Of a stretch of DNA of 64,000 bases, positions 36,007 through 50,714 are shown piece by piece. The stretch spans positions 9,754,501 through 9,818,500 of the forward strand of contig NZ_JARXYJ010000001.1 in NCBI RefSeq assembly GCF_029894425.1, given 5' to 3'. Origin of the DNA: Streptomyces sp. SAI-127. Lineage in GTDB: Bacteria > Actinomycetota > Actinomycetes > Streptomycetales > Streptomycetaceae. How positions within the stretch are numbered: position 1 is the first letter of the stretch; every line of letters begins with the position of its first letter. The translations under genes were made by a program, and so were the position numbers. A model generated the notes under the pieces. The model was not told where the DNA came from and ran no database searches. It saw only the letters and a program-made list of their open reading frames with translations.

Positions 36007-36504
36007 TCAGTGGTAGGCGTGGACGACCGCGTGCCCCTTGCCCCGGCCGATCATCCACTTGTTGACCGGTGTGGTGATCAGGAAGGCGACCGCGAAGCCG
36101 CCGAGCAGGGCGGACCAGAACAGTCCGTCGGACAGCTCGGCGTCCATCGCGCCCGGGGTGAAGGCGATGATCGCGTTGTCGACCAGCTCCATGACGGCGA
36201 TGGAGACGGTGTCGGCCGCGAGCGCGACCTTGATGGCGGTCTTGAGGTCCAGGCCGGCCCGGCGCACCGCGAAGAGCGTGAAGGAGTAGCCGAAGAGGAA
36301 CGCCAGCGCGATCGCCAGGACCATCGTGGGTACGTTGCCCCACAGCAGGGCGGTGCCGATGGCCATGCCGAGGATTTCGCCGATGGCGCAGCCGGTCAGG
36401 CAGTGCAGCGTCGCCTTCACGGCCGTTCCCCAGGATGCCCCCGCGTGCCCGCCGTGCTCGGCGTGGCCCTCGTGAGTGGTGTGGTCGTGAGCGGTGTGGT
36501 CCAT
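36007..36504 (-). CDS. DUF4396 membrane protein with His-rich N-terminus (copper-box controlled)
   Basis: A 165-residue integral membrane protein. The first 27 residues are a metal-binding tail with ten His and acidic residues (MDHTAHDHTTHEGHAEHGGH). Four hydrophobic segments follow, starting with ATLHCLTGCAIGEILGM, whose CxxxC inside a helix is the DUF4396 hallmark. The helix VALAADTVSIAVMELVDNAI carries acidic residues that may coordinate cations. GGGGAAGAGG precedes the ATG at 36504. A CsoR-type palindrome lies 61 bases before the start. A copper or heavy-metal transport or buffering role is inferred from the box and tail; biochemical function is unknown. Confidence 0.85.
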   Translation of the reverse strand: MDHTAHDHTTHEGHAEHGGHAGASWGTAVKATLHCLTGCAIGEILGMAIGTALLWGNVPTMVLAIALAFLFGYSFTLFAVRRAGLDLKTAIKVALAADTVSIAVMELVDNAIIAFTPGAMDAELSDGLFWSALLGGFAVAFLITTPVNKWMIGRGKGHAVVHAYH

Positions 36505-36564
36505 GACCTCTTCCCCATTCTCATCCAGTGTGGCCCGTGCCCGAGCCCCACACCACGGAACCAT

Positions 36565-36581
36565 ATACCCCCCAGGGGTAT
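36565..36581. promoter_or_regulatory. CsoR-type copper operator 1
   Basis: ATACCCCCCAGGGGTAT, a TACCCC/GGGGTA palindrome, 61 bases upstream of the DUF4396 start. It matches two other copies in this window (41137 and 45882). CsoR binds such sites and releases them when it binds Cu(I). Confidence 0.85.
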
Positions 36582-36615
36582 TTAGCCAGGCGTGCGTCGT
36601 TCATGCGCAGACGTG

Positions 36616-38049
36616 TCAGTGCACGTGCGGGCCCCCGGTCATCTGCGGCTTGCCACGGGGTACGAGTCCCAGTGCCACCGCGGCGCTCACCGCCGCCGCG
36701 AGTGCGCAGACGGTGAAGGCGTTCGTGAATCCGTCTATGGAGCCGGACTCGATGCCCGAGGCGGCGACCGTGGAGACGACCGCCACGCCGATCGAGCCGC
36801 CCACCTCGTGGAAGGTGTTGACGACGCCGGAGGCGAGGCCCGCCTCGTGGTGTTCGATCATGCCCAGCGCGGTGGTGGTGGCGGTGACGAAGACCGTGCC
36901 GAGGCCGAAGGTTGCCACGACGAAGGCGGGCAGCAGGCCCGCGTACACGCTGCTGTCGGCGGTCAGCCGGGTCAGCGGCAGGGATCCGGCGGCGGCGATC
37001 GCCATGCCGGTCGCGGCGACGGTTCGGCTGCCGACGCGGCCGAGGAGCCGGGAGGCGAGGTGGGCGCCGAGGCCGGTGGCCACGGCCACCGGCAGGAACA
37101 GCAGGCCGGTCTTCAGCGGGCTGAGGCCCTGGACGTGCTGGAGGTAGACCGAGCCGAGGAAGAAGTAGGCGATCAGCAGCGCGGTCGCGATCAGCATCAG
37201 GAACGCTCCCGCGAGCACCGGGCGCCGGGTGAACATCCTCAGGTCCATCAGCGGGGCCTGGGCGGCCCGTTCGACCGCGGCGAATCCTGCGTACAGCGCC
37301 ACCGCGGCGGCCAGCGGCAGCAGTGTGGCTGCGTCGGACCAGCCGGAGTCGCCCGCCTCCACCAGGCCGTAGATGAGCAGGCCGGTGCCCGCGGTGACCA
37401 GCAGTGCGCCGGGCAGGTCGAGCCGGGCCGGCTGCGGGGCGCGGGCGGGGACGAGCGCGGGCAGGGCGGCGAGAACAGCGATGCCGATCGGGACGTTGAT
37501 GAAGAAGACCCACTGCCAGCCGGGACCGTCGGTGAGCGCGCCCCCGATCAGGACGCCGGCCGCCGAGCCGGAGGCGCCGATCGCGGCCCACACGCCCAGT
37601 GCCTTGTTGCGCTCGGGGCCGTGGAAAGTGGTGGTGACGATCGAGAGCGCCGCCGGGGAGAGCAGGGCGGCCCCGACGCCCTGGGCGATCCGCCCGCCCA
37701 GGAGCACGGCGGCGCCGCCGGCGAGTCCGGTGACCAGCGAGGCGGCGGTGAAGACGGCGAGTCCGGCGAGGAGGGTGCGGCGAGCGCCGAGGGCGTCGGC
37801 GAGGCGTCCGCCGAGCAGCATCAGCCCGCCGAAGCACAGGGTGTACGCGGTGACCGTCCAGGTCAGTGTCGCCCGGTCGAGGTGGAGGTCGGAGGCCATG
37901 TCGGGCAGCGCGACGTTCACCACGGTGACGTCGAGGATCAGCATGAACTGCGCGACGCAGATGAGGGCCAGCGCCGCCCAGCGGCGTGGGTCGGCCGACG
38001 GGTGGTGATCTACCGGTGCGTGGTGTGCGGCGCTCGCGGAATGTGTCAT
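36616..38049 (-). CDS. MFS transporter, DHA2 (EmrB/QacA-like)
   Basis: A 477-residue, 14-helix exporter. The first helix is WAALALICVAQFMLILDVTVVNVALPDM, a strong DHA2 marker (LDxTVVNVALP). Motif A is GRLADALGARRTLL, and motif C-like IGASGSAAGVLIGGAL lies in TM5. AAGGA precedes the ATG at 38049; a longer in-frame start enters the TetR promoter. It is divergent from a TetR gene whose ACTGAACTG/CAGTTCAGT arms flank the gap. It ends in HVH and lies upstream of the copper box of the DUF4396 gene, but its own promoter has no such box. Confidence 0.92.
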   Translation of the reverse strand: MTHSASAAHHAPVDHHPSADPRRWAALALICVAQFMLILDVTVVNVALPDMASDLHLDRATLTWTVTAYTLCFGGLMLLGGRLADALGARRTLLAGLAVFTAASLVTGLAGGAAVLLGGRIAQGVGAALLSPAALSIVTTTFHGPERNKALGVWAAIGASGSAAGVLIGGALTDGPGWQWVFFINVPIGIAVLAALPALVPARAPQPARLDLPGALLVTAGTGLLIYGLVEAGDSGWSDAATLLPLAAAVALYAGFAAVERAAQAPLMDLRMFTRRPVLAGAFLMLIATALLIAYFFLGSVYLQHVQGLSPLKTGLLFLPVAVATGLGAHLASRLLGRVGSRTVAATGMAIAAAGSLPLTRLTADSSVYAGLLPAFVVATFGLGTVFVTATTTALGMIEHHEAGLASGVVNTFHEVGGSIGVAVVSTVAASGIESGSIDGFTNAFTVCALAAAVSAAVALGLVPRGKPQMTGGPHVH

Positions 38050-38182
38050 GACGGGTCCTTGTCGCGAGGGGCGGAATGGAGAGGTCGGCATGGTGGTGAA
38101 GGCCGGCGCGGCGGCGAACGCCGAGCACGGTGACACCCACCCCATGGCCATGGGCGCGGGCAGAGGCAGTTGCCCGCCCACA

Positions 38183-38230
38183 ACTGAACTGTACGGCTCA
38201 GTACATATGAACTCAACTGTTCAGTTCAGT
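38183..38230. promoter_or_regulatory. Inverted repeat operator between DHA2 pump and TetR
   Basis: ACTGAACTG (38183) and CAGTTCAGT (38222) are 9-bp perfect inverted arms 30 bases apart; extra half-sites (CAACTGTTCAG) lie between. The site lies just upstream of the TetR start. Confidence 0.65.
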
Positions 38231-38249
38231 CGGTTGCTACGATCGGCCC

Positions 38250-38900
38250 ATGAATGTGGACAGCGTCAAACAGCCCCCCAGCGGCCCCCGGGCGGAGCAG
38301 AAGCGGCAGGCCATCGTCCGGGCAGCGCGCGAACTGTTCCTGCGGGAGGGCTTCGGCGTTGGTATGGACGCCATCGCCGCCGAGGCGAACGTGTCCAAGG
38401 TGACCGTCTACAACCACTTCGGCAGCAAGGAAGCGCTGTTCACCGCGGTCATCACGAGCGCGCTCGACGAACCCCTGGGCCACGCCTCCTCGGCCGCGCT
38501 CGAAGGGCTGCCCGAGGCGGAGGACCTGCGCTCCGCACTCCTGGACACGGCCCGAACGTGGGTGCACGCCGTCAGGACCAACCAGGACGTCATCGCCCTG
38601 CGCAACCTGGTCGCCGCCGAACAGCACCGCTTCCCCGAACTCGGCCGCGCCTGGCAGGGCCGGGGTCCCGAGGGCCACCATCCGGCCGTCGCCGGCGCCC
38701 TCCGCGAGCTCGCGGATCAGGGCCGGCTGGTCATCCCCGACCTGGAGACCGCGATCACCCAGCTGTACGCGCTGCTGGTCTTTCCCCACATGGTCTTCAG
38801 TACTTACGGCACGCAAGTGGACGAGAGTCTCGCCGACCGCCTCATCGTCAGCGGGGTGGACATGTTCCTCAGCTACTACGGTCCGGGGCGGGGCCGCTGA
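38250..38900 (+). CDS. TetR/AcrR-family regulator of the DHA2 pump
   Basis: A 216-residue regulator. AEQKRQAIVRAARELFLREG leads into the helix-turn-helix GMDAIAAEANVSKVTVYNHF and GSKEALFTAV. The C-terminal domain resembles the TetR_C_7/AefR-like group. It faces the DHA2 pump over 200 bp holding 9-bp inverted arms, so it probably represses the pump and itself. The ATG overlaps no other gene. Confidence 0.92.
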   Translation: MNVDSVKQPPSGPRAEQKRQAIVRAARELFLREGFGVGMDAIAAEANVSKVTVYNHFGSKEALFTAVITSALDEPLGHASSAALEGLPEAEDLRSALLDTARTWVHAVRTNQDVIALRNLVAAEQHRFPELGRAWQGRGPEGHHPAVAGALRELADQGRLVIPDLETAITQLYALLVFPHMVFSTYGTQVDESLADRLIVSGVDMFLSYYGPGRGR

Positions 38901-38928
38901 GCCCCGCCACGGACCGGCAACTGCAGGC

Positions 38929-40569
38929 TCAGGCCCCGTAGGCCACGACCGCCATCATCCCGGCCTCACCGTGGTAGGCGTTGTGGCAGTGCAGCATCCA
39001 CTGGCCGGGATTGTCCGCGTCGAAGACGACCGACACCGACTTCCTGGGCAGCACGATGGTGGTGTCCTTGCGCGGACCGGTGCTGCCGAGCTGGTAGGTG
39101 TGGCCGTGCAGATGCATCGGATGCCACATGTCGCTCGTGTTGACGAAGTCGAGCCGGACCCGCTCGCCCTCCTCGACGAGCAGCGGGTTCGCGGTCGGAT
39201 CGGCCATGTCGTACCGCCTGCCGTCGATGGACCAGTCGTACTTCGCCATGCTGCCGGTCAGTTCGATGCGGTGGACCCGGCCCGCCTTCTTCTCGTCCAG
39301 CCGTACGTCGTCGGCCGCATGCAGCTGCGCAGCGGTCACGATCACACCGTCCAGCTCGGCCGGTCGCACGGTCGGCTTCGGCGCGCTTCCCGACCCGGTG
39401 CGCACCAGGGCCATGCCGCTCGCGTTTTTGCCCTCGGCGAGCGCGACGAGCGGGAAGACGCCGTCGCCGAGGGTGACCAGGACGTCGTACCGCTCGCCCA
39501 TGCCGATCAGCAGCGAGTCGGCCTGCTGGTGCTCCACGGGAAAGCCGTCGGTGTGGGTGACGGTCAGCTGGTGGCCACCGAGCGCCACCCGGTAGGCGGT
39601 GTCGGCGCCCGCGTTGATGATGCGGAGACGGACGCGCCTGCCCGGCTTGCCGGTGTAGACGGCCGGGGCGGCCGGCACCCGCCCGTTGATCAGGTGGTAG
39701 GGGTACTCGACGTCCCCGGCGTCGCCGCCGAGCAGTTCACTGGTGGCGCCCATGAGCATGAACCTCATCGACATACCATCCTCGGCGGAGGCGGACGGCG
39801 AGGACGTCGTGGCGTCCATGCCGGCGCCGCCCATGTCCATTCCGCCCATGTGTCCCATGTCGTGACCGGACGAGCCGGCCGACGCGGAGGGGGTGGATGC
39901 GTCGCCTGAACCGCCCATGTCCATGGCGCCCATGCCCTGCCTGAGTTCGGCGAAGGCTTCGTCGGGGGTGCCGGTCACGCCGTCCAGCCAGTCGTCGAGG
40001 ACGACGACCCACTCGTCGTCGTACCCCAGCGGCTCCCCGGGGTCCTCGACGATCAGCGGCGCGTACAGGCCGCGGTCGAGCTGGACGCCGACGTGCGGGT
40101 GGGAGAAGTACGTGCCGGGCGCGTCGGCGATGAACCGGTACGTGAAGGCGGACCCGGCCCGCACCCCGGTCTGGGTGAGGGGCGGTACACCGTCCATGTC
40201 GCTGCGCAGTGCGATGCCGTGCCAGTGGAGGGAGGTCGTGGTCTGGCCGGGCAACTGGTTGGACAGTTCGGCGGCGAGGGTGTCGCCGGCCGAGATCCGG
40301 ATCTCCTTACCGGGAGCCCGGCCGCTGAAGGCCCAGGACTTGGCCGTGATGCCGGCGCCCAGGTCGAGCGTTGCGGGAGCGGCCGTCAGGTTGAGGCGGT
40401 GCACCCTGCCCGTACTGGTCCGCTTCTTCTCGGTGCGGGCGACCTGCGAACCGGACGGGCTGAGCAGGGCGGGGCTGTTGGAGGTGTCGCTGCTGCAGGC
40501 GGCGAGCAGGCCGGTACCGGCCGCGCCCAGTCCGGCGAGCAGGACGGAGCGACGGTTGATGCTGTTCAC
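38929..40569 (-). CDS. Multicopper oxidase, Tat-exported lipoprotein with Met/His-rich insert
   Basis: A 546-residue CueO/laccase-like oxidase that probably oxidises Cu(I) outside the membrane. The N-terminus has a twin-arginine (NRRSVLLAGLGAAG) and a lipobox LAAC (Cys 25). Copper sites: HWHG (115-118), HPH (157-159), HPMHLHGH, and HCHNAYHGEAGM (Cys 528, His 533, Met 538 form the type 1 site). An insert of about 80 residues at roughly 208-285 is rich in Met, Gly and His (GMGAMDMGG, HDMGHMGGMDMGG), as in copper-tolerance oxidases. GAGGAT precedes the GTG start. No copper box is directly upstream; the small exported gene 95 bp upstream has one, so co-transcription is likely. Confidence 0.94.
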   Translation of the reverse strand: MNSINRRSVLLAGLGAAGTGLLAACSSDTSNSPALLSPSGSQVARTEKKRTSTGRVHRLNLTAAPATLDLGAGITAKSWAFSGRAPGKEIRISAGDTLAAELSNQLPGQTTTSLHWHGIALRSDMDGVPPLTQTGVRAGSAFTYRFIADAPGTYFSHPHVGVQLDRGLYAPLIVEDPGEPLGYDDEWVVVLDDWLDGVTGTPDEAFAELRQGMGAMDMGGSGDASTPSASAGSSGHDMGHMGGMDMGGAGMDATTSSPSASAEDGMSMRFMLMGATSELLGGDAGDVEYPYHLINGRVPAAPAVYTGKPGRRVRLRIINAGADTAYRVALGGHQLTVTHTDGFPVEHQQADSLLIGMGERYDVLVTLGDGVFPLVALAEGKNASGMALVRTGSGSAPKPTVRPAELDGVIVTAAQLHAADDVRLDEKKAGRVHRIELTGSMAKYDWSIDGRRYDMADPTANPLLVEEGERVRLDFVNTSDMWHPMHLHGHTYQLGSTGPRKDTTIVLPRKSVSVVFDADNPGQWMLHCHNAYHGEAGMMAVVAYGA

Positions 40570-40664
40570 GAATGGATCCTCTTCTCGATGCGCGAAAGGC
40601 GTTCGGGGTGGTCCGGACACGGCTCGCCGGCGTCGCCGGGACGCGGGAAGCCGTGGGACGCGGC

Positions 40665-41096
40665 CTATATGCGCAGCAGAGAAATGAGAGACAGGTCGGG
40701 TGGCGCACGACTCACCGACCGTGCGGCGTCCACGCCCGCGTGCACGGCGACGGGAACCGAGAAGGCGGGGGCCGGTGACTCGGGCGGGGCCGTGAGCTGT
40801 ACGACGTGGACACCGGCAGCGGTGCACAGCTGCATCGCCATGGAAGGACAGGCAGCGCCGTCCGAACCGTGCACGACGGCGCCGGCTGCGGCTGGTGAGC
40901 CCGTGTGGGAGTGGGCGGCGGGAAGTGAGGGAGATCCCGGCATGGTGTGTGCCGCGGATGCCGACATCGTGGTGACCGGTGCGTCGGGCAGCTCGTGGTG
41001 CAGTAGTACGGCGAGCACCGCGCACAGCGTGACGAGCAGCCCGCGTGTCCAGCGGGCGGCACCGCCGAACCGGGGCAGCGGCTCTCCTACCGTCAT
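40665..41096 (-). CDS. Small exported protein with C-terminal LSLLRI (DUF6153-like), copper-box controlled
   Basis: A 143-residue protein. One hydrophobic segment (WTRGLLVTLCAVLAVLLHHEL) serves as signal or anchor, followed by a His/Met/Cys-containing outer part (AAHTMPGSPSLPAAHSHTGS, ACPSMAMQLC) and the end DLSLISLLRI. The start at 41096 is used because upstream ATGs lie within or before the CsoR-type box at 41137, from which transcription must begin. The multicopper oxidase gene follows 95 bp downstream. Extracellular metal binding is inferred from composition and context. Family function is unknown. Confidence 0.78.
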   Translation of the reverse strand: MTVGEPLPRFGGAARWTRGLLVTLCAVLAVLLHHELPDAPVTTMSASAAHTMPGSPSLPAAHSHTGSPAAAGAVVHGSDGAACPSMAMQLCTAAGVHVVQLTAPPESPAPAFSVPVAVHAGVDAARSVSRAPPDLSLISLLRI

Positions 41097-41136
41097 CACG
41101 AGGCGTCCGTACTCTCTGCAAGCGAGGAAGGCCACC

Positions 41137-41153
41137 ATACCCCGTACGGGTAT
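41137..41153. promoter_or_regulatory. CsoR-type copper operator 2
   Basis: ATACCCCGTACGGGTAT, a perfect 17-bp palindrome except the central base, 41 bases upstream of the small exported gene that precedes the multicopper oxidase. It matches the copies at 36565 and 45882. Confidence 0.82.
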
Positions 41154-41279
41154 AAGTGCCGTGTCGGTCTCCATGAGGTCCGCCCTCCGGGGCGCGACGT
41201 GCCATGGGTAGGCTGAGATGACCAGGGACAACCATCAGCGCCTGCACCGGGCGTCGGACATGGCGGTAGGGGCGGGCCT

Positions 41280-41705
41280 GTGAGCGGCGGTATGAAGGCG
41301 AGCGGCGTCGCCGCACGTCTTGTCCTGCTGGCCCTGCTGTTGCTCGGCGTCGGCGTGCTGCACACACTGAGCCACGCGGGAGCGCATGGCGGCGTCTCGG
41401 CACCCATCGCGGTCACGGACTCTCACGAGGCGTATCCCGTCGGCGCTGACGAAGCCGGTGCTGTGCACTTGCTGGATGTGGCCCACGTGAGCGTGGAGCA
41501 GCAGGAGCGAGGGCACCGGGCACATGTCGAAGCGACGGACGTGTCCGACTGCTTCGCGCTGATCCCGGGTGAAGCATGGCTGGCCCCGCCACCCTGCACG
41601 GCCGTGTCGAGCGGCGCCACGGATCTCGCTGCGTCCACCGCCGGTGCGGTCCAGGACTTTGGCGGGGGTCCCGCACGGGCGCAGCTGTCGGTACTGCGGA
41701 TCTAG
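41280..41705 (+). CDS. Small exported protein with C-terminal LSVLRI (DUF6153-like)
   Basis: A 141-residue protein built like the gene at 40665 on the other strand: basic N-terminus, one hydrophobic segment (LVLLALLLLGVGVLHTLSHA), a polar outer part with scattered His and two Cys, and the end QLSVLRI. The two genes are divergent around a CsoR-type box, so both may respond to copper. The start is a GTG; an in-frame ATG four codons later is possible. No enzyme motif is visible. Confidence 0.72.
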   Translation: MSGGMKASGVAARLVLLALLLLGVGVLHTLSHAGAHGGVSAPIAVTDSHEAYPVGADEAGAVHLLDVAHVSVEQQERGHRAHVEATDVSDCFALIPGEAWLAPPPCTAVSSGATDLAASTAGAVQDFGGGPARAQLSVLRI

Positions 41706-41820
41706 GCCGACGGTGACCTGACGCACGCACACCAGGAGGTGTCGTGCCGGCGGACCGCGCCTTCCTGGCTCGGCCGCCCATTCACCGTCCACGCTCCGAG
41801 GGGCCGATCCGCGTACCCGC

Positions 41821-42687
41821 GTGCGGCCCGCGCTGAAAGGCGTCCACTTGTCCCAGCACCATCTCGCCCACCGCACCTACGCACCTTCACCGAGTCGGGC
41901 CACGCATGCACGCGAACCGTACGACCCAGGGCCCGGGCAGCAGGCCGTCACCGCGCGCGACTCCGGTGGACCCCTGACCGAGCCGGACCGGTCGCCGGGC
42001 CGTGCCGAGCGGCGGCGGGGTCGCCGTCGTGCCCCGAAGCGCACGCCCCTGCTCGGCAGCTACCTCGGTTACGCCGCCACGTTCGTCGGCGCCGGACTCA
42101 TCAGCGGCGCCATCGTGCACCATCCGCTGGATCCCGCCCGCTACACGCTCATTGCCGTCGTCGGCGCGGCGGTATTCCTCTTCGCCACCGTGCTCAACGA
42201 GTTCGTCCTCACCAAGCGGCGGCCCGCGGCGACCAGGGTGCTGGGCATCGTCACCGCGTCGCTCGCCCTGTCGTTCGGCATCGGCATGCTCAGCGGCGGA
42301 CTGCAGCACTTCGAGGACTTTCCCGAACGCGCCGCGATGCTGATCCCCTTCGGACTGGCCCTCTCCTTCGTGGCGTACGTGCTCCGGCACGAGCCCGCCC
42401 GCTGGCGCAGCATCCTGGGCCCGGCGGGCATCCTGGTTCTTCTCACCGCCGCCCTCGCCTTCGTCGGCCTGCGCGGCATCGCCGACGGCATGGCCGCCGA
42501 GTCGGGCGGCGGCGGGCACAGCCACGGCGACGAGCCCGCCGGAGAGGCACAGACACCGGAGCAGGCGAATCCGGGCCACGACCATGACAGGAACAGCGGG
42601 ACTCCGGCCTCCGCGGATCCTGAGGGGACCGCAGCTCCTGTCGAGAGTGAGGAGGCGGGGCACGCCGACGACTCACACAGCCACTGA
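41821..42687 (+). CDS. Predicted membrane protein with His-rich C-terminal tail
   Basis: A 288-residue protein of no recognised function. About 75 polar N-terminal residues precede five hydrophobic segments (SYLGYAATFVGAGLISGAIV, YTLIAVVGAAVFLFATVLNEF, VLGIVTASLALSFGIGML, AAMLIPFGLALSFVAYVL, ILGPAGILVLLTAALAFVGL). The last 70 residues are a His/Asp/Glu tail (HSHGDEP, NPGHDHDRNS, HADDSHSH) typical of metal-binding extensions. The start is uncertain: a TTG at 41848 with GAAAGG seven bases upstream may be the true one. Its place in the copper region suggests metal trafficking. Confidence 0.75.
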   Translation: MRPALKGVHLSQHHLAHRTYAPSPSRATHAREPYDPGPGQQAVTARDSGGPLTEPDRSPGRAERRRGRRRAPKRTPLLGSYLGYAATFVGAGLISGAIVHHPLDPARYTLIAVVGAAVFLFATVLNEFVLTKRRPAATRVLGIVTASLALSFGIGMLSGGLQHFEDFPERAAMLIPFGLALSFVAYVLRHEPARWRSILGPAGILVLLTAALAFVGLRGIADGMAAESGGGGHSHGDEPAGEAQTPEQANPGHDHDRNSGTPASADPEGTAAPVESEEAGHADDSHSH

Positions 42688-42739
42688 AGCCGGGGGGGTG
42701 AGCCTTGGTGGCCGTCCCGGGAGCTTGGTGCCGGCGCGC

Positions 42740-43417
42740 TTACGGACGGGCAGAGTGACCGCCGTGGCCGGGGTGGTGCCCAGGGTGGTGCTGCGCATGC
42801 ACCGTGGCGTCGGTGCGTCGGGGACTGTCCGATGAGCCGGCGCCACCCGGCCGCACCCCGGTGAGGGTGAGGGCGACGAGCCGGTGCACCGCGGCCTCGG
42901 ACGGCAGGTCGCCGGCCGCGGTGAGGGCGTGCAGGCAGTAGCTCGCGAGTTCGCCGGGAGCGATGTCGTCCCGTACGTCGCCGGTCTGTACACCGTCGGC
43001 CAGCAGGTCCTCGACCATGCCGTGAAGTCGCTGCTGTGCCTGGTTGACCTGGCGGTCACGGTGCAGGAACGCCGCCACATCGCCGTCATGGTGCTGCCGG
43101 GACACGCGGGAGATGAGGGCGAACGCCCGCAGCACCGCCTTCAGACGCGCTCCGGCACCGTCGGTCCGGTCCCGGACTGCGGCCAGGTGGTCGAGGTGGT
43201 GGGTGATCTGCTGCTCGTGCCAGGCGAGGAGGATCGACTCGACGTCCGGAAAGTACTTGTACAGCGTCGCGCGCCCGATCCCGGAGTCCTTCGCGATCCG
43301 CGACATCGTCACCGACGTCAGCCCGTGCTCGGCGACCAGCGCCGCGGTGGTTTCCAGGACCGCCTTGCGTACGGCGGCGCGGTGCGCGTCGATCGTCTCG
43401 TTCCAGAGCTTGGGCAC
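42740..43417 (-). CDS. TetR-family regulator with His-rich C-terminus
   Basis: A 225-residue regulator. The DNA-binding domain is AAVRKAVLETTAALVAEHGL, then SVTMSRIAKDSGIGRATLYK and YFPDVESILLAW, typical of TetR. The C-terminus ends HAQHHPGHHPGHGGHSARP, a His-rich tail that is unusual for the family and could bind metal or reflect recruitment to the metal region. GTG start; it faces a methyltransferase gene across 120 bp holding a GAGACA/TGTCTC palindrome over a -35, so that gene is the probable target. Confidence 0.9.
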   Translation of the reverse strand: MPKLWNETIDAHRAAVRKAVLETTAALVAEHGLTSVTMSRIAKDSGIGRATLYKYFPDVESILLAWHEQQITHHLDHLAAVRDRTDGAGARLKAVLRAFALISRVSRQHHDGDVAAFLHRDRQVNQAQQRLHGMVEDLLADGVQTGDVRDDIAPGELASYCLHALTAAGDLPSEAAVHRLVALTLTGVRPGGAGSSDSPRRTDATVHAQHHPGHHPGHGGHSARP

Positions 43418-43447
43418 GGCCCCAGCATACGATCCGGCGATGCCGTG

Positions 43448-43486
43448 ACACTGTGGATTGACAGAGACAGTGTGTCTCGATAAAGC
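43448..43486 (+). promoter_or_regulatory. Promoter with overlapping operator for the methyltransferase gene
   Basis: TTGACA at 43458 and TAAAGC 17 bases on form a sigma70-type promoter. The perfect repeat GAGACAGTGTGTCTC (43464-43478) lies in the spacer, and a wider pair ACACTGT/ACAGTGT spans 43448-43473. This is a classic position for TetR repression by the divergent gene. Confidence 0.65.
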
Positions 43487-43536
43487 TGAGGTCGTCCCGG
43501 GAACCCGGACGCTCAGGACAGACGGGAGAGCGCACC

Positions 43537-44160
43537 ATGGCCGGCTCGACCCACCACCCCCACTCCGGTGCCCCGGTCCCGCCCACGCCGGACGACCTCT
43601 ATGCCACCAGACCGCCCTGGGACATCGGCCGGGCTCAGCCGGCGTTCGCCGCTCTCGCCGACGCCGGTGCCTTGGGAGGCAGGGTCCTGGACGTCGGCTG
43701 CGGGACCGGTGAGCACGCGATCATGGCGGCTGGACTCGGCCTGGACGCGACCGGCGTGGACCTGGCGGCGAACGCCCTGCGCACGGCCGAGGACAAGGCC
43801 CGGGCCAGTGGTCGTACGGCGAGGTTCCTGCGGCACGATGCCAGGCGGCTGGGCGAACTCGGCGAGCGGTTCGACACGGTGCTCGACTGCGGGCTCTTCC
43901 ACCTCTTCGACGGGGATGACCGCGCCGCTTACGTTCAGGCCCTGCGGGCCGTCGTACCCCGGGGCGGGCGCTACTTCATGCTCGGCTTCAGCGACCGGCA
44001 GCAGGGGGAGTGGGGGCGGGTGCACAGGCTGACGCGGGGCGAGATCGAAGCGGCGTTCGCCGAGGGGTGGCGGGTCGACAGCATCGAGCCGTCCACGATC
44101 GACATCACCACCGACCCGGAGGGCATCCGGGCGTGGCTGGCGGCTCTCACCCGTACCTGA
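43537..44160 (+). CDS. Class I SAM-dependent methyltransferase
   Basis: A 207-residue soluble enzyme. Motif I is VLDVGCGTGEHAIMAAGLG, followed by ATGVDLAANALRTAEDKARA, FDTVLDCGLFHLF and the late motif RGGRYFMLGFSD. N-terminal LYATRPPWDIGRAQPAF is typical of small actinobacterial thiol/thiopurine- or tellurite-type methyltransferases. It is divergent from and probably repressed by the TetR at 42740. The substrate could be a thiol, halide or metalloid; sequence alone does not settle it. Confidence 0.9.
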   Translation: MAGSTHHPHSGAPVPPTPDDLYATRPPWDIGRAQPAFAALADAGALGGRVLDVGCGTGEHAIMAAGLGLDATGVDLAANALRTAEDKARASGRTARFLRHDARRLGELGERFDTVLDCGLFHLFDGDDRAAYVQALRAVVPRGGRYFMLGFSDRQQGEWGRVHRLTRGEIEAAFAEGWRVDSIEPSTIDITTDPEGIRAWLAALTRT

Positions 44161-44264
44161 CCCACCCATCCGCCGGGACCGGCGTCCGATGCGGCGCCGT
44201 GCCCACGGACCGATCAGCGCACCAGACGATGCCTGCCTGGCAGGCGCACGGAAAAGGGAACGCC

Positions 44265-44903
44265 ATGCCAACCGCCGAAGCCCGCGTCGAGACCGAACGG
44301 CCCGGCCGGTACCTCGTCCAGCTCTGCAAGCACTTCTCCCACAAGGGCCGCCACCTCGGCCGGCGCCTCCACGGCCATTCCGGCGGTGACGGCCAGGCGC
44401 CGCATGAGATGCGAGCCGTGGCGGAGCAGGCCCGGGTCGAGTGGTCCGACACCGAGGGGCATGTCGCCCTGCCCTGGGGCCGGATCACCCTGCGGGCCGC
44501 CCCCGGTGCGCTGCTCCTGCACGCCGAAGCAGACGCAGCCGACGACCTGAAGCGGCTGCAGGACCTCGTCGCCGGGCACGTGGGGCGGTTCGGCCGACGC
44601 GAAAGCCTGCGGGTGAACTGGCAGGCAATCGACACGTCGGCGGATTCTCCCGAGGCCGCCGTCGGCGATGCCCGGCTGTCGTCGGCGGATGCCGGGCCGC
44701 GCCGCAGTCACCTCAAGGTGGTGGGCGTCGTGGCCGTCGTCGCGATCGTCCTCGCGGTACACCTCGGGCTCGGCAGTGTCCTGCTGTCGAACTGGCGGTG
44801 GACCGGCTGGGCCGCCGGCGGCCTCCTGGCTGCGGTCATGCTGAAGGTGGGGCTTCTGGGCGGCTTCGCCATCCGCCGCGGCCGGGCCTCCAAGGGCCGC
44901 TGA
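44265..44903 (+). CDS. DUF2218 domain protein with C-terminal membrane segments
   Basis: A 212-residue protein. The N-terminal 105 residues match DUF2218 (TERPGRYLVQLCKHFSHKGR, ARVEWSDTEGHVALPWGRIT, DDLKRLQDLVAGHVGRFGRRE), a small alpha/beta domain with conserved K-H-F-H residues often seen near iron or siderophore genes. Two hydrophobic segments near the end (VVGVVAVVAIVLAVHLGLG, GWAAGGLLAAVMLKVGLLGG) make this version membrane-anchored, which is unusual for DUF2218. GGGAACGCC precedes the ATG. Context suggests metal homeostasis. Confidence 0.85.
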   Translation: MPTAEARVETERPGRYLVQLCKHFSHKGRHLGRRLHGHSGGDGQAPHEMRAVAEQARVEWSDTEGHVALPWGRITLRAAPGALLLHAEADAADDLKRLQDLVAGHVGRFGRRESLRVNWQAIDTSADSPEAAVGDARLSSADAGPRRSHLKVVGVVAVVAIVLAVHLGLGSVLLSNWRWTGWAAGGLLAAVMLKVGLLGGFAIRRGRASKGR

Positions 44904-44942
44904 ACACGCGGCGGCACCGCGCATCGGCGGACGCGGGCCGGC

Positions 44943-45450
44943 TCAGTGCCCGCCGCTCGTCTCCGCCTCGGGGTGCTCGGTGAAGGAGCTTGCACCATCC
45001 CTCGACTCGTGGACTCCGCTCTGCGCGGCGGCCAGAGGACGTGCCCGGCGCTGACGGCGTGAGCGCTTGGGGCCGGCCGCCCGGCACCGTGAGCAGTTTC
45101 TTCCCGGTGACCCCGCCGTCGGCACTGCGGTGCAATGCGCCCGTGGTGTCGATGCCGTACAGCGCCTCCTTTCGGTCTGCCGGCGTCGTTGCCGTGCGGG
45201 GCGATGCCGGTGGCCCGCCGGAGCCCTGTGGGCGGCTCCGGCGGACCACCGGCCGGACATCGCTGCACCTCGGTTCGGCAGCTCATGCGCTCAGACGCCG
45301 ACCTGCTCGCCCGGCTCCGCCCGCTCGGTTTCCTGGCGGACGGAGCCCGCGGACTTCTCGGTTCGCATCACCAGGAGGGTGAGGAGTCCGCCGATCGCGG
45401 CGTGCGGGCGCCGGCGCCTTGTCGGGGGAGTGTCTTCTCGGGAGCCGTGC
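44943..45450 (-). pseudogene. Remnant of a BNR-repeat exported glycosylhydrolase-like gene (F510_1955-type)
   Basis: Pieces of a secreted beta-propeller-like protein are spread over two or three frames. A 5' part reads RRRPHAAIGGLLTLLVM then TEKSAGSVRQETERAEPGE, like a lipoprotein signal and linker. A middle part reads KEALYGIDTTGALHRSADGG and KKLLTVPGGRPQALT, a BNR/Asp-box type repeat. A 3' part in another frame reads VHESRDGASSFTEHPEAETS with a stop at 44943. Most of the propeller (about 200 residues) is missing. Intact versions occur beside copper genes in streptomycetes; the identification rests on motif memory, not a search. Confidence 0.6.
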
Positions 45451-45483
45451 TGGGCATGGGGATTTCCCAGGGGCAACATGTGA

Positions 45484-45505
45484 TCCGGGGCCAACCGGCC
45501 CCGGA
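45484..45505 (-). terminator. Hairpin after copZ
   Basis: TCCGGGGCC and GGCCCCGGA with a four-base AACC loop, six bases after the stop. Confidence 0.7.
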
Positions 45506-45510
45506 GGGGC

Positions 45511-45804
45511 TCACGCCGTGCCGACGAGTTCGTAACCCGCCTCGTCGACGGCGGCACGGACGGCCTCCTCGTCGAGCGGGGCGGCGGATGCGACAGTCAC
45601 CTCACCGGTCTGGGCGACGGCCGTGACCGCGGTGACGCCACCCAGCGCGGATATCTCCTGCGAGACCGCGCCCTCGCAGTGGCCGCAGGTCATGCCGGAC
45701 ACCTTGTAGACGGTGGTGACCCCGCCGCCTTGGGCCTCGGTCGCGGCGCCGGAGTGGCAGGAACCCTCGGTGGAGCAGCAGGAGCCGTTCTTCTGGTCGG
45801 TCAT
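45511..45804 (-). CDS. copZ: CopZ-like heavy-metal-associated copper chaperone
   Basis: A 97-residue cytoplasmic protein. Residues 29-97 are an HMA ferredoxin-like domain with the metal-binding loop GMTCGHCEGAV (CxxC) and the end VDEAGYELVG. A 28-residue Cys-rich extension (GSCCSTEGSCHSG) precedes it and could be a second metal site. It normally hands Cu(I) to CopA or CsoR. A CsoR-type palindrome lies 78 bases upstream of the start. No copA is adjacent, which is unusual for copZ. Confidence 0.92.
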   Translation of the reverse strand: MTDQKNGSCCSTEGSCHSGAATEAQGGGVTTVYKVSGMTCGHCEGAVSQEISALGGVTAVTAVAQTGEVTVASAAPLDEEAVRAAVDEAGYELVGTA

Positions 45805-45881
45805 GGCTTCTTCCTCCGGTGTCGACGCGCGTGGGTACTTCGTGGGGACTCGGTCTCTCGAGCCCCGACACGGTCAACCAT

Positions 45882-45898
45882 ATACCCCCTAGGGGTAT
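45882..45898. promoter_or_regulatory. CsoR-type copper operator 3
   Basis: ATACCCCCTAGGGGTAT, a perfect palindrome around one central base, 78 bases upstream of copZ. It is the best match to CsoR sites among the three copies in this window. Confidence 0.88.
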
Positions 45899-45984
45899 CG
45901 ATGGCATGTGATGCGGCCCACGAACATTCCTCTGCCTCCTGCACAAGGCCGACGCCGCTGGGAGTGTCGAGGAGGGCGTCGTCG

Positions 45985-46845
45985 CTATACGGCCATCATC
46001 AGCAGCATGGCGGACATGGTCCCGCCCATGCCGATGTGGGCGGCGAGGGCCGCCTCCGGTGCCGCGCCGATCCTGCGGCGACGGCCCCCATGACGGCCGC
46101 CGCCCGTCGTACGGGCCCTGTCCCACACGGAGAGCGCCAGCGACGCCAAGAACACGACGACGGTGTCAGGCATGGTCAGCAGCCAACGGCCCCAGCCGCT
46201 GCGCCGAGCACTCTCTCGACCGTCGGCGCGAGAGCTTCGGCCGGCGTCCCGGACACGCACCCGCACCGACGCGGCGATCGACAACAGGAAGTAGACGGCG
46301 AGCGCGGCGACGACGAAACGCCAGACGGAAGGCGACGCCGCCTCCGCCCCGGCGGCCAAGCCATGGCCGCTCATGCCCGGCATGGCCTCCACGTGGGCCG
46401 AGCCTGCCGTGTCGGCCGCATGCTGCATACCCGCCGCGTGCTCCATCCCCGGCGTCCCGGCCATGCCGTGGTGGCCCAGAGCGAGAACGGGCCCGGACGA
46501 CGTGTTCGTCATCGCCAGCGTCATGAGCACCATGCCGGCGCTGCCGACGATGAGGTGTACCCAGTGGCGGCCTTCCTTCCAGCCGCGTTCACGCGTGCTC
46601 TTGACGGCCAACGCGACGGCGCCGGTCCCGAGGAGGGAGAACGCCGCCGACCACCACAGGCCGTAACCCCCGTACCAGGCCGCCGTCGCGGGCAGGGACA
46701 TCGCGACCATGCACAGACCCATCAGCAGGTCGCCGCCTGCCGCGAACCGGGCCTCGCCGCTCGTGGTCATCATCCGGACCGCGCTGACGGCGGTGACCAG
46801 AGTGGCGACGACTGCGATGGACCAGCTCAGAGTCAGGCTTCCCAT
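45985..46845 (-). CDS. DUF5134 membrane protein with Met/His-rich loop
   Basis: A 286-residue membrane protein with about seven hydrophobic segments (SWSIAVVATLVTAVSAV, LLMGLCMVAMSLPATAAWYG, WVHLIVGSAGMVLMTLAMT, VWRFVVAALAVYFLLSIAAS and others). The central loop is rich in Met and His (LGHHGMAGTPGMEHAAGMQH, EAMPGMSGHGL), a pattern of Cu(I)-handling proteins. GGAGGAGGGG precedes the ATG at 46845. It lies just upstream of copZ in the same direction. The family has no known activity; a copper role is inferred. Confidence 0.87.
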   Translation of the reverse strand: MGSLTLSWSIAVVATLVTAVSAVRMMTTSGEARFAAGGDLLMGLCMVAMSLPATAAWYGGYGLWWSAAFSLLGTGAVALAVKSTRERGWKEGRHWVHLIVGSAGMVLMTLAMTNTSSGPVLALGHHGMAGTPGMEHAAGMQHAADTAGSAHVEAMPGMSGHGLAAGAEAASPSVWRFVVAALAVYFLLSIAASVRVRVRDAGRSSRADGRESARRSGWGRWLLTMPDTVVVFLASLALSVWDRARTTGGGRHGGRRRRIGAAPEAALAAHIGMGGTMSAMLLMMAV

Positions 46846-47072: not shown

Positions 47073-47525
47073 ATGATTACGGCTTGGTCACCTCCGCGCT
47101 TGGCGCGGGCCCGTGCGTTTGCGGGTCCGTCGCTGCGCATGCTGGCCATGGCCGTGCTGCTGTTCGGCGTTGTGTTCACGCACGGACTGCACGTCGAGAG
47201 CGTCGAAGGGCACCTGGTGTCCAGCGCGGCAGCGCCCGCGCAGGTGCAGTCCGAGGGCGCCTTGGACGTCACGGACACACAGGTCCTTTTCCCACGTGCC
47301 GCGATGGCCGAGCGGCATGGCGGTCACGCCCCCGCGCACCGGGGTGAGCACTGCGTATCCGGCCAGCCGCAGCAGGGACCGGTGTTGACACCGCCCTGCT
47401 TTGCAGCGTCGGTTAGCGAATCCACCGCCCCCGGGTCTGCCTCGGTCAGGCGCGGCCAAGGCCAGCTCGTGATATCTGGCGCGTCGTCGGCGGCCCTGAG
47501 ACTGTCCGTGGTCCAGCAGGTCTAG
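47073..47525 (+). CDS. Small exported protein of the copper region (third copy type)
   Basis: A 150-residue protein. One hydrophobic segment after a basic start (AGPSLRMLAMAVLLFGVVFTHGLHVESVEGH, about residues 18-45), a polar outer part with HGGHAPAHRGEHC and a second cysteine (TPPCFAASV), and the end ALRLSVVQQV. The general plan (anchor, His-containing outer region, LSV end) resembles the genes at 40665 and 41280. No enzyme motif. It is followed by a similar gene at 47743. Confidence 0.65.
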   Translation: MITAWSPPRLARARAFAGPSLRMLAMAVLLFGVVFTHGLHVESVEGHLVSSAAAPAQVQSEGALDVTDTQVLFPRAAMAERHGGHAPAHRGEHCVSGQPQQGPVLTPPCFAASVSESTAPGSASVRRGQGQLVISGASSAALRLSVVQQV

Positions 47526-47742
47526 AAGCAGCAGTTCTCCCCTTCCGGCTGTCCGGGCCGCGCCCCTCTGACGGGCGATGAGAACGGTCGCCGACTCGCG
47601 CGAGACGACCACCAGTACTCCGCACACCTCGACGAGGATCCGGCGCTGCTGTCGACGCCGACCTGCCTCCCCACCCATGCCTGCCGCTTGCTTCTGCCCT
47701 GGCTGCCGCCGGGCCGAAGAGTCCCGGGCGCACGGAGGACCT

Positions 47743-48171
47743 GTGCCAACCAGCTCCCGCATGCCCACATTCGCCCCACGGGCCGTGGCCGACGGCCGCC
47801 GACCGCACCCACTCGCCCGTCTGCTGCGGGCCGCCCTGCTGTTGCTGATCGGCCTGTGCGCCGTCGTACACGGGCCTACCGGTGATCCGCACCAGCCGGC
47901 ACCTGCCGTCACCGCGGTGTCGACGCCGGTTGCGAGTGACGGGGCGCCCCACGGCCCGCACGGCCACCACGGGGATGCGGAGTGTGCCGACGAAGCCGTC
48001 CGTACGACCGACCACGTTGCTCAGCAGCCACCTACCGGGGCCGGAACGGCAGCGCTCGTCGGCCTCTGCGTGGCGCTGGTACGGCCCCGAGCACACAGCC
48101 GTCCCTACCGGTTCCGCACTGGACATACGGGCAGGACCGCACTCGCCCGCACCTCGCGCTGGCGCATCTAG
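47743..48171 (+). CDS. Small exported protein with His-rich segment (fourth copy type)
   Basis: A 142-residue protein. GGAGGAC precedes the GTG start by a few bases. One hydrophobic segment (LARLLRAALLLLIGLCAVVHG), then a His-rich outer stretch (GAPHGPHGHHGDAECADEAV) and a second hydrophobic part (GTAALVGLCVALV). The basic C-terminus ends SRWRI. It fits the series of small exported proteins in this region by layout, with weak sequence similarity. Metal binding outside the membrane is the plausible role. Confidence 0.6.
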   Translation: MPTSSRMPTFAPRAVADGRRPHPLARLLRAALLLLIGLCAVVHGPTGDPHQPAPAVTAVSTPVASDGAPHGPHGHHGDAECADEAVRTTDHVAQQPPTGAGTAALVGLCVALVRPRAHSRPYRFRTGHTGRTALARTSRWRI

Positions 48172-48306: not shown

Positions 48307-49422
48307 ATGCAGTCACTGAAGAACACCGCCGCCACACCCGACCGGTCCGCCCTGTCGGCACTGGTGGGCAACACTCCGCTGCTGCGGGTGTCCCAGCCGC
48401 TGACACCGGCAGACCGCGGCTTCTGGGCGAAGCTCGAGGGCTTCAATCCCGGCGGCATCAAGGACCGGCCCGGCCTGCACATGGTGGAACGGGCCCGCGC
48501 CCGCGGCGACCTGCGCCCCGGCGCCCGGATCATCGAGTCCACCAGCGGCACCCTTGGCCTCGGCCTCGCCCTGGCCGCAATGGTCTACGGCCACCCGGTA
48601 ACGCTGGTCACCGACCCCGGTCTGGAGACGTCCATGACCCGGCTCCTGACCGCCTACGGCGCCCAGGTCAATGTGGTCTCCGAGCCCCATCCCACCGGCG
48701 GCTGGCAGCAGGCCCGTCGCGAGCGCGTTCAGCAACTGATGGCGCAGCACGCCGACTCCTGGTGCCCGGACCAGTACAACAACCCGGACAACACCACCGC
48801 CTACACCCCGCTCGCCCTGGAACTGGCAAGCGAACTCGGCCACCTCGACGTCCTGGTGTGCAGCGTGGGCACCGGCGGACACTCCGCCGGCATCTCCCGC
48901 GTGCTGAAGCAGCTCTACCCCGACCTGACAGTGGTCGGGGTCGACACCATCGGCTCCACGATCTTCGGCCAGCCGGCCCGGCCGCGGCTCATGCGGGGTC
49001 TGGGATCGAGCATCTACCCCCGTAACGTCGCCTACGACGCCTTCTCCGAGGTCCACTGGGTGGCCCCGGCCGAGGCGGTGTGGACCTGCCGCCAACTGGC
49101 CACCTCGCACTACGCCACTGGCGGCTGGAGCGTAGGTGCGGTCGCCCTGGTCGCCGGATGGCTGGCCGGCACCCTGCCCGCGGACACCCGGATCGCGGCC
49201 ATCTTCCCCGACGGACCGCAGCGCTACCTCGGGACGGTCTTCGACGACGACTACTGCGCCGCCCACGGGCTGCTCGCTTCACCGCCCCCGCCCGAGCCCG
49301 AGGTGATCGGGCGCATGGACGAGAAAGAAGTCGCTCGTTGGACCCGGTGCCCCAACGTGGTCGACCCGCTCACCCTGACCCAACCGTCAGCGGAAACCGA
49401 AGCCGTGGAGGAGAGCCGGTGA
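48307..49422 (+). CDS. PLP-dependent cysteine-synthase-like enzyme
   Basis: A 371-residue fold-type II PLP enzyme. The PLP lysine is in [13 protein letters not shown], the phosphate loop in GTGGHSAG, and [16 protein letters not shown] matches the substrate loop of cysteine synthases. The N-terminal [14 protein letters not shown] is the family start. The family normally has about 310 residues; the last 60 residues here ([19 protein letters not shown]) are extra. Its stop overlaps the next MFS gene by four bases, so product and export are linked. It may make a cysteine-derived metal chelator or modified amino acid; this is inference. Confidence 0.9.
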
Positions 49423-50714
49423 AGGGCACCCTCGCTCAGGTACGCAGCTACGAACGCAGCGTCCAGTTGCTGATGGTCAATCAGTTCACCATCAACCTCG
49501 GCTTCTACATGCTGATGCCCTACCTGGCCGCCCACCTGTCCGGCACCCTCGGACTGGCCGGCTGGGTCGTCGGACTCGTCCTCGGCGTACGCAACTTCAG
49601 CCAGCAGGGCATGTTTCTCGTCGGCGGGACGCTCGCCGACCGGTTCGGTTACAAGCCGTTGATCGTCGCCGGATGCGTGCTGCGCACGCTCGGCTTCGCC
49701 ACGCTCGGGCTGGTCGATTCCCTGGCCGCGCTGATCGCCGCCTCGGCGGCGACGGGACTCGCCGGGGCCCTGTTCAATCCGGCGGTCCGGGCGTACCTCG
49801 CCGCGGATGCGGGGGAGCGCAGGGTTGAGGCGTTCGCGCTGTTCAACGTCTTCTACCAGGCCGGCATCCTGCTGGGCCCGCTCGTCGGCATGGTGCTGAC
49901 AGGCGTCGACTTCCGCGTCACCTGCCTGGTCTCCGCCGGGATCTTCGCACTGCTGTCCATCGTCCAGATCCGGGCGCTGCCCACTCGCCGTGCCGACGAC
50001 AGCAAGGCCAAGCAGGACGGCCGGGGCGGCGTACTGGCCCAATGGCGCGGCATTCTCGCCAACCGGCCGTTCCTGCTGTTCTCCGGCGCCATGATCGGCT
50101 CGTACGTCCTCACCTTCCAGGTCTATCTCGCGCTGCCACTGGAGGTGCGACGGGTCGGCGGTGACGGCGAGTTCGGCACAGCGGCCGTTGCAGGGCTCTT
50201 CGCCGTCTCCGGACTGAGCACGATCCTCTGCCAGACGAGGGTGACCGCGTGGTGCAAAGCCCGGTACGAGCCGGGTCAGGCGCTGACCCGAGGTCTGGCG
50301 GCCATGGGCCTGGCCTTCGTGCCTCTGCTGCTGTCCACCGTCCTGCCCGTCCCCGATTCCGGTGTGGGCCTGTGGCTGCTGGCCGCGGTGCCGTCCACGC
50401 TCGCCGCGCTGCTCCTGGCGATCGGCACGATGATCGCCTACCCCTTCGAGATGGACACCATCGTCCGCCTCTGCGGTGACCGTCTCGTGGCCACGCACTA
50501 CGGGCTGTACAACACCGTCTGCGGCATCGGCATCACCCTCGGGAACCTGCTCACCGGCGCGGCCCTCGACGCCGCTCGCGAGGCCGGGGTGCCGGCGCTG
50601 CCGTGGATCTCGCTGTGCGCGCTCGGCCTCGCCTGCGCGGCCGCCCTCTACGCCCTGCACCGCACCGGGCGACTGGCGACCCCGACGCACCGACCGCAGC
50701 CGGCCGTCGCCTGA
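49419..50714 (+). CDS. MFS transporter coupled to the cysteine-synthase-like gene
   Basis: A 431-residue, 12-helix exporter (MdtH/YajR-like). TM1 is [24 protein letters not shown], motif A is [14 protein letters not shown], and [18 protein letters not shown] is a typical TM4-5 loop. The GTG start overlaps the upstream stop (GTGA) with GGAGGAG just before, so translation is coupled. It likely exports the product of the PLP enzyme or a related thiol/amino-acid compound. A 15-bp perfect hairpin follows. Confidence 0.9.

Follow-up and report, generated by a model that had tools for sequence, protein, structure and literature searches.

Three CsoR-type operator boxes and a conserved box-linked DUF4396 membrane protein in a copper gene island of Streptomyces sp. 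SAI-127

In Streptomyces, both development and antibiotic production are governed by copper (PMC6414726). Two described systems come closest to the locus reported here, namely the CsoR regulon of S. lividans and S. coelicolor, for which csoR, copZA1 and copZA2 are named as members, and the RicR regulon of Mycobacterium tuberculosis, which includes mmcO, mymT, rv2963 and an operon in the order lpqS-cysK2-rv0849 (PMC7924339). S. lividans CsoR binds sites of the consensus ATATACCCCTNAGGGGTATAT, in which the TAC/GTA dyad is required for binding (PMC3902906). Here, three boxes of this type are described in a 64,000-nt stretch (the window) of the 10.7-Mb genome of Streptomyces sp. SAI-127, covering positions 9754501-9818500 of contig C1 and ending about 150 kb short of the end of this 9.97-Mb contig. 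They stand ahead of copZ, of a small exported protein-multicopper oxidase unit and of a gene for a DUF4396 membrane protein. We consider, with a probability of about 0.7, that these boxes are operators of the SAI-127 CsoR and switch the three units, and that DUF4396 is a Cu(I) membrane protein. This reading starts from direct observations: the boxes themselves, their conserved position ahead of the same genes, a regulator nearly identical to a studied one and the gene content of the island.

Operator boxes and their presumed regulator

Boxes were scored against TACCCC-N3-GGGGTA, with TAC and GTA required intact and a maximum of 12/12. Two of the three are perfect: box 1 at 36566-36580 (TACCCCCCAGGGGTA), 61 bp 5' of the DUF4396 ATG at 36504 (- strand), and box 3 at 45883-45897 (TACCCCCTAGGGGTA), 78 bp 5' of the copZ start at 45804 (-). 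Box 2 at 41138-41152 (TACCCCGTACGGGTA, 11/12) lies 41 bp 5' of the start of the small exported protein, at 41096 (-). An earlier reading of this DNA, made from the sequence only, had put boxes ahead of these same genes, in agreement with the distances now obtained, and had called them near-identical; that description holds for the sites at 36566 and 45883 and is slightly generous for that at 41138, because its right arm reads CGGGTA, one base off. In 400 Markov-1 sequences built on the window model, again with the dyad intact, perfect sites averaged 0.005 and those of 11/12 or better 0.025, versus two and three observed, and a chance origin of the boxes was rejected on these figures. The evidence depends on the strict form of the box, because a relaxed search allowing up to two mismatches returned four sites in the window against 1.96 expected from shuffling, which is not significant.

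Two CsoR-family genes are present in SAI-127. Over the aligned core, the product of the csoR gene at C1:5528510 shares 84 of 88 residues with S. lividans CsoR (4adz), the C-terminal arginines named in PMC3902906 falling outside the compared stretch, and csoR itself carries a box that starts 122 bp before its domain match. The window boxes also display the traits of a type-2 CsoR operator, with TAC/GTA inverted repeats nine bases apart around G-tracts and a cognate CsoR encoded in the same genome. All this is consistent with their previous assignment as CsoR-type operators. As had been noticed before, the window contains neither copA nor csoR, since tblastn with the SAI-127 copies found none there; both genes appeared outside it in the genome-wide search that the sequence-only reading had proposed. 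Keeping the dyad intact and requiring at least 11/12, this search yielded 10 sites. Besides the three units of the window, csoR, copZ-copA and a further DUF4396 gene have one each, and copA, opposite a divergently encoded exported protein, has two; the last two sites fall within unrelated genes or at their ends. The regulon is thus dispersed, as had been suspected, with eight of 10 genome sites at copper genes inside and outside the window. Relative to the S. lividans/S. coelicolor regulon in its published outline, SAI-127 has in common the operator, the copZ-copA targets and a nearly identical CsoR, whereas it adds two DUF4396 genes, the exported protein-multicopper oxidase operon and a solitary copZ.

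When the scan was extended to SAI-127 plus 12 further genomes of the genus Streptomyces, 48 perfect boxes were found, versus two for the reversed pattern. Allotted to genes by hand from their positions, 28 of these sites belong to copZ, to copA or to the exported protein encoded opposite copA, nine to DUF4396 and four to the exported protein-oxidase operon, two of these four, in genome G003, also facing a divergent copZ. Three more precede an MFS gene, each with a second box 36 bp away, two precede an ArsP_1 permease, one lies ahead of a gene beside csoR-copA that we take to be BlaI-like from its sequence, and one was allotted to no gene. From sequence, the distribution suggests that the Streptomyces CsoR regulon holds the exported protein-oxidase operon, the ArsP_1 permease and the MFS gene, and that it would combine what mycobacteria divide between CsoR and RicR.

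Box linkage of DUF4396 across genomes

The DUF4396 gene of the window (36007-36504, -) encodes a 165-aa membrane protein with a His-rich N-terminal tail, an HC-x3-C motif and a GKGHAVVHAYH tail. It matches PF14342 with an E-value of 2e-42 and 145 bits, versus a cut-off of 27, and its closest named relatives are from Streptomyces, such as that of S. canus with 96% identity. DUF4396 is a large family, with at least 8000 scored relatives and no assigned function, and matches to it occur in 73 of 101 Streptomyces genomes. Among 87 rows, 82 genes were read (79 fetched loci, L051 and the two SAI-127 copies), leaving out G079 (L144, a stretch lacking DUF4396), three G085 fragments and a broken G043 row. 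A box of at least 11/12 is located within 350 bp 5' of 71 of these 82 genes, 67 being perfect, and all 1,343,411 bases read around them contain 86 boxes of at least 10/12. The remaining 11 genes showed no box, ten of them staying blank under the relaxed pattern too; one of the 11 (L194) is of a sister type.

The same association emerges from a named-locus set of 80 loci, whose genomes overlap those of the 82 genes: at 74 of 79 scorable loci the motif has a box no more than 400 bp away, perfect in 69, L343 being uncounted since its motif was not found. On the contrary, control stretches located 2.0-2.4 kb from DUF4396 loci had boxes in only one of 77 upstream and none of 76 downstream. DUF4396 matches were detected in 50 of 396 genomes of the phylum. 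Outside Streptomyces, the box was found at 16 of 25 loci read of the type with the HCLTGC motif, across six families (f3, f5, f9, f18, f34, f42), in a count that includes by separate reading L274 and L279, both missed by the motif pattern; one of the box-bearing genomes is a Conexibacter by protein match. Copper genes also adjoin some of the nine boxless loci, DUF4396 being immediately 3' of a copZ-like gene at L253 and L256, with a copA-like gene at most 1.5 kb upstream at L255 and a copZ-like match 1.4 kb upstream at L268.

PF14342 comprises two types that differ in this respect. No box was found at any of the six loci read of the sister type (HCGAGC or HCxAGD), which is about 27% identical, in contrast with the box-linked HCLTGC type, and therefore the box tracks the protein type and not merely the family name. 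The place of DUF4396 in the regulon, formerly a guess, has thus become a conserved association, and the HCLTGC type is a conserved predicted CsoR-regulon gene in several actinobacterial families. Tying one type of such a large family to a copper switch opens the way to a direct and cheap functional test.

As for the surroundings of these genes, a bacterioferritin gene lies about 1.25 kb from DUF4396 at L017 and at 47 more loci. In SAI-127, a molybdopterin oxidoreductase gene on the opposite strand, convergent to DUF4396, stands between DUF4396 and the bacterioferritin gene.

A putative copper route through DUF4396 and competing explanations

The AlphaFold2 model of DUF4396, built with 53 sequences, shows four long and two short helices with disordered tails (mean pLDDT 79.2, pTM 0.68), and places H34-C35-x3-C39 in helix 1. 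Basic residues concentrate at the turn between helices 2 and 3 and at the C-terminus, and the link from helix 3 to helix 4 carries acidic residues; because of this charge pattern, both ends are suggested to lie inside, in the cytosol. When 30 sequences of the box-linked type and 22 of the sister type were compared, H34, C35, C39 and D98 were invariant in both, while E43, M105, D109, N110, P117, M120, H158 and H162 were so only in the box-linked type. A known fold for the protein finds no support, as Foldseek gave no significant match and the best hit of a PDB profile search had an E-value of 0.54.

At one locus in a distant actinobacterium (G462, L288:4899-6263) a perfect box lies 11 bp ahead of a 454-residue open frame, in which DUF4396 (residues 35-164) is joined to a domain that shares 50% identity, over 201 residues, with the SAI-127 exported protein divergent from copA. 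The match of this exported His-motif domain to YtkA-like is weak, being under the cut-off. The fusion was seen a single time, and in G325 both genes are close together on the same strand.

Combining these features, we infer, with good support, that DUF4396 has a role in copper handling, and that the three units would be copper-induced. At low copper, CsoR would sit on the TAC-N9-GTA dyads and block the promoters, and Cu(I)-bound CsoR would release the DNA and turn the three units on. The copZ product would then act as a cytosolic Cu(I) chaperone, and the exported Cys/Met/His protein, together with the multicopper oxidase, would handle extracytoplasmic copper and oxidize Cu(I). DUF4396 would most likely be an inner-membrane Cu(I) protein of four helices whose two tails are cytosolic; these His-rich tails (H158/H162 and the N-terminal His clusters) may collect Cu(I) or accept it from CopZ, handing it on to an intramembrane H34-C35-x3-C39 site, with E43, D98, M105, E106, D109 and M120 as further candidate ligands. 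From there copper might exit outward to the exported His-motif domain, which in Streptomyces is encoded next to copA and in the G462 frame is fused to DUF4396, so that DUF4396 would be an ATPase-independent helper of CopA.

Going one step further, HCLTGC-type DUF4396 might represent a new family of small, CsoR-controlled inner-membrane Cu(I) transporters or hand-over proteins in many Actinomycetota, clearing copper with an exported His-motif partner, without ATP and parallel to CopA; we put this forward tentatively, as somewhat more probably wrong than right. Only a passing mention of DUF4396 was found in the open-licence literature. The RicR and CsoR gene lists consulted, among them those of PMC7924339 and PMC10470581, use gene or locus names and not Pfam names, and do not contain the name DUF4396. 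Its link to CsoR may nevertheless already be on record, unnamed, under a locus tag among the predicted targets listed by Dwarakanath (2012), because PMC6414726 gives some of the predicted CsoR targets by locus tag.

The strongest competitor to a Cu(I) protein accepts the boxes as CsoR operators and makes DUF4396 only copper-induced, shielding a function damaged by copper, such as iron storage, redox function or membrane function. It would suit the bacterioferritin gene near 48 of 82 DUF4396 loci, the convergent molybdopterin oxidoreductase of SAI-127, the occurrence of the H-C-x3-C motif in the boxless sister type, and the order box-DUF4396-CysK2-MFS in G271 and G580, two genomes from a different family of that class. 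Nonetheless, 34 of the 82 loci, the window copy included, lack a bacterioferritin match, and an opposite-strand gene separates bacterioferritin from DUF4396 in SAI-127. Moreover, invariance of the further possible ligands M105, M120, H158 and H162 is confined to the box-linked type, and in some distant genomes DUF4396 has copZ, copA or the exported domain as a neighbour or fusion partner. We regard this explanation as unlikely, though it deserves more weight than the others. It is more doubtful still that DUF4396 binds or moves another metal (Ag, Ni, Zn or Hg) or is an ion channel, its control by CsoR being incidental.

The second CsoR-family gene of SAI-127, at C1:1295362 (L024), is set among what we take, from their sequences, to be rhodanese-type genes. 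Genes for sulfane-sulfur sensors typically sit in such company, and this one probably encodes such a sensor. Very improbable, finally, is that a different member of the CsoR family recognizes the boxes, RicR-like for copper or CstR-like for sulfur: such a second gene does exist and genes of the island are similar to those of the mycobacterial RicR regulon (PMC7924339, PMC10470581), but the setting of this second gene is that of a sulfur sensor, csoR carries the same type of box, and CsoR is nearly identical to the protein shown to bind it (PMC3902906).

The oxidase operon, copZ and neighbouring genes

The multicopper oxidase behind box 2 (38929-40569, -) has three cupredoxin domains (Cu-oxidase_3, Cu-oxidase and Cu-oxidase_2) and a Met/His-rich insert; its best NCBIfam match, the CopA-type TIGR01480, reaches 236.6 bits, under the cut-off of 478.95. 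The preceding small exported protein (40665-41096, -; 143 aa), with motif CPSMAMQLC and tail APPDLSLISLLRI, belongs to DUF6153 (PF19650, 35.6 bits versus a cut-off of 27.7). In the 30 best oxidase loci, SAI-127 included, 27 have a box at most 1.1 kb upstream, and in relatives a small exported protein is encoded between box and oxidase. Its near relatives with the right frame (L220, L232 and L235 being left out) share a CxxMxMQ(H/L)C-like motif and an APPDLSxLSxLRI-like end. The arrangement box-exported protein-multicopper oxidase is thus conserved as judged from these loci, which upholds the earlier placing of this small protein in the predicted regulon.

This does not extend to DUF6153 as a family: box linkage stands for the subtype before this oxidase and falls for the rest, since boxes within 500 bp upstream were found in just two of the 30 best members, both weak (10/12). 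These whole loci contain five boxes of at least 10/12, and the three others are about 1.2 kb downstream (L062 after strand correction). In this count and the corresponding one for DUF5134 below, strand was set by stop counts, with some loci misread, and L060, L070, L102 and L103 are clipped at contig ends. No mention of DUF5134 or DUF6153 was found in the open-licence literature.

The copZ-like gene (45511-45804, -) encodes a chaperone with a Cys-rich N-terminus, an MTCGHC motif and a Pfam HMA match (E 9.2e-14), and is solitary, with no copA in the window. A similar copZ of G003 (L226) stands opposite the oxidase operon, with the boxes between the two shared. Just upstream of box 3, a long-form DUF5134 membrane protein with a Met/His loop is encoded at 45985-46845 (-; PF17197, E 4.9e-11, 43.2 bits versus a cut-off of 29). 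Because this gene is upstream of box 3 and on the same strand as copZ, the box serves copZ and not DUF5134. The idea of DUF5134 as a box-linked copper family is not sustained, as the family is present in 98 of 101 Streptomyces genomes and none of its 30 best members has a box within 500 bp upstream; the only box of at least 10/12 in their whole loci (L087) is downstream of its gene. It is just the rare long form with the Met/His loop, seen in 16 of 199 genomes, that appears in copper clusters, the window copy being boxless. It often adjoins an oxidase-operon or DUF4396 box or directly precedes a box-bearing copZ or copA. By eye, and counting L207 and L211 as one gene and SAI-127 within the sample, seven of 17 long-form genes have a box at most 300 bp upstream, and 12 of 17 one at most 1.4 kb to either side of the match start.

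The copper-related stretch may extend beyond 46845 to about 50.7 kb, through an operon on the + strand. Its first gene (47073-47525) encodes a small exported protein that reaches 21.7 bits for DUF6153, under the cut-off of 27.7, and like proteins precede CysK2 in 23 of 30 loci. An open frame for a small His-rich protein with no Pfam match follows at 47578-48171, a similar frame being present in 14 of 30 loci. Then come a CysK2-like PLP enzyme (48307-49422; Pfam PALP, E 1.7e-52; related to cysteine/cystathionine synthase structures) and an MFS transporter (49413-50714; Pfam MFS_1, E 5.1e-33), which follows CysK2 in 30 of 30 loci. Box control of this operon was rejected, no box being found in the window operon or in any of the 30 best CysK2 loci, SAI-127 included.

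Likenesses to the RicR regulon are several. Its multicopper oxidase is under a CsoR-family box, like that behind window box 2. The ArsP_1 permease, box-bearing in two relatives, would be another, as we take Rv2963 to be an ArsP_1-type permease. The exported protein-CysK2-MFS order of the window is that of lpqS-cysK2-rv0849, as reported in PMC7924339, the Streptomyces operon differing in its lack of a box. G271 and G580 join DUF4396 with this RicR-like CysK2-MFS order behind a single box.

Several minor features complete the island. The TetR-MFS pair at 36616-38900 was discarded as a copper unit, having no box in its own intergenic region, and looks like an ordinary efflux pair. Divergent from box 2, a small exported His-rich protein with no Pfam match is encoded at 41280-41705 (+), weakly similar to that of 47073-47525 (blastp E 0.002). 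Homologues of the membrane protein with a His-rich tail at 41821-42687 occur near seven of the 82 DUF4396 loci, the window included. Elsewhere in Streptomyces, the MFS gene with paired boxes, a further candidate CsoR target, carries them about 36 bp apart at L431, L439, L226 and L179, and an ArsP_1 permease gene is 3' of a perfect box at L433 and L436. The presumably BlaI-like regulator gene (L440:3553-3948) has a perfect box and adjoins csoR-copA.

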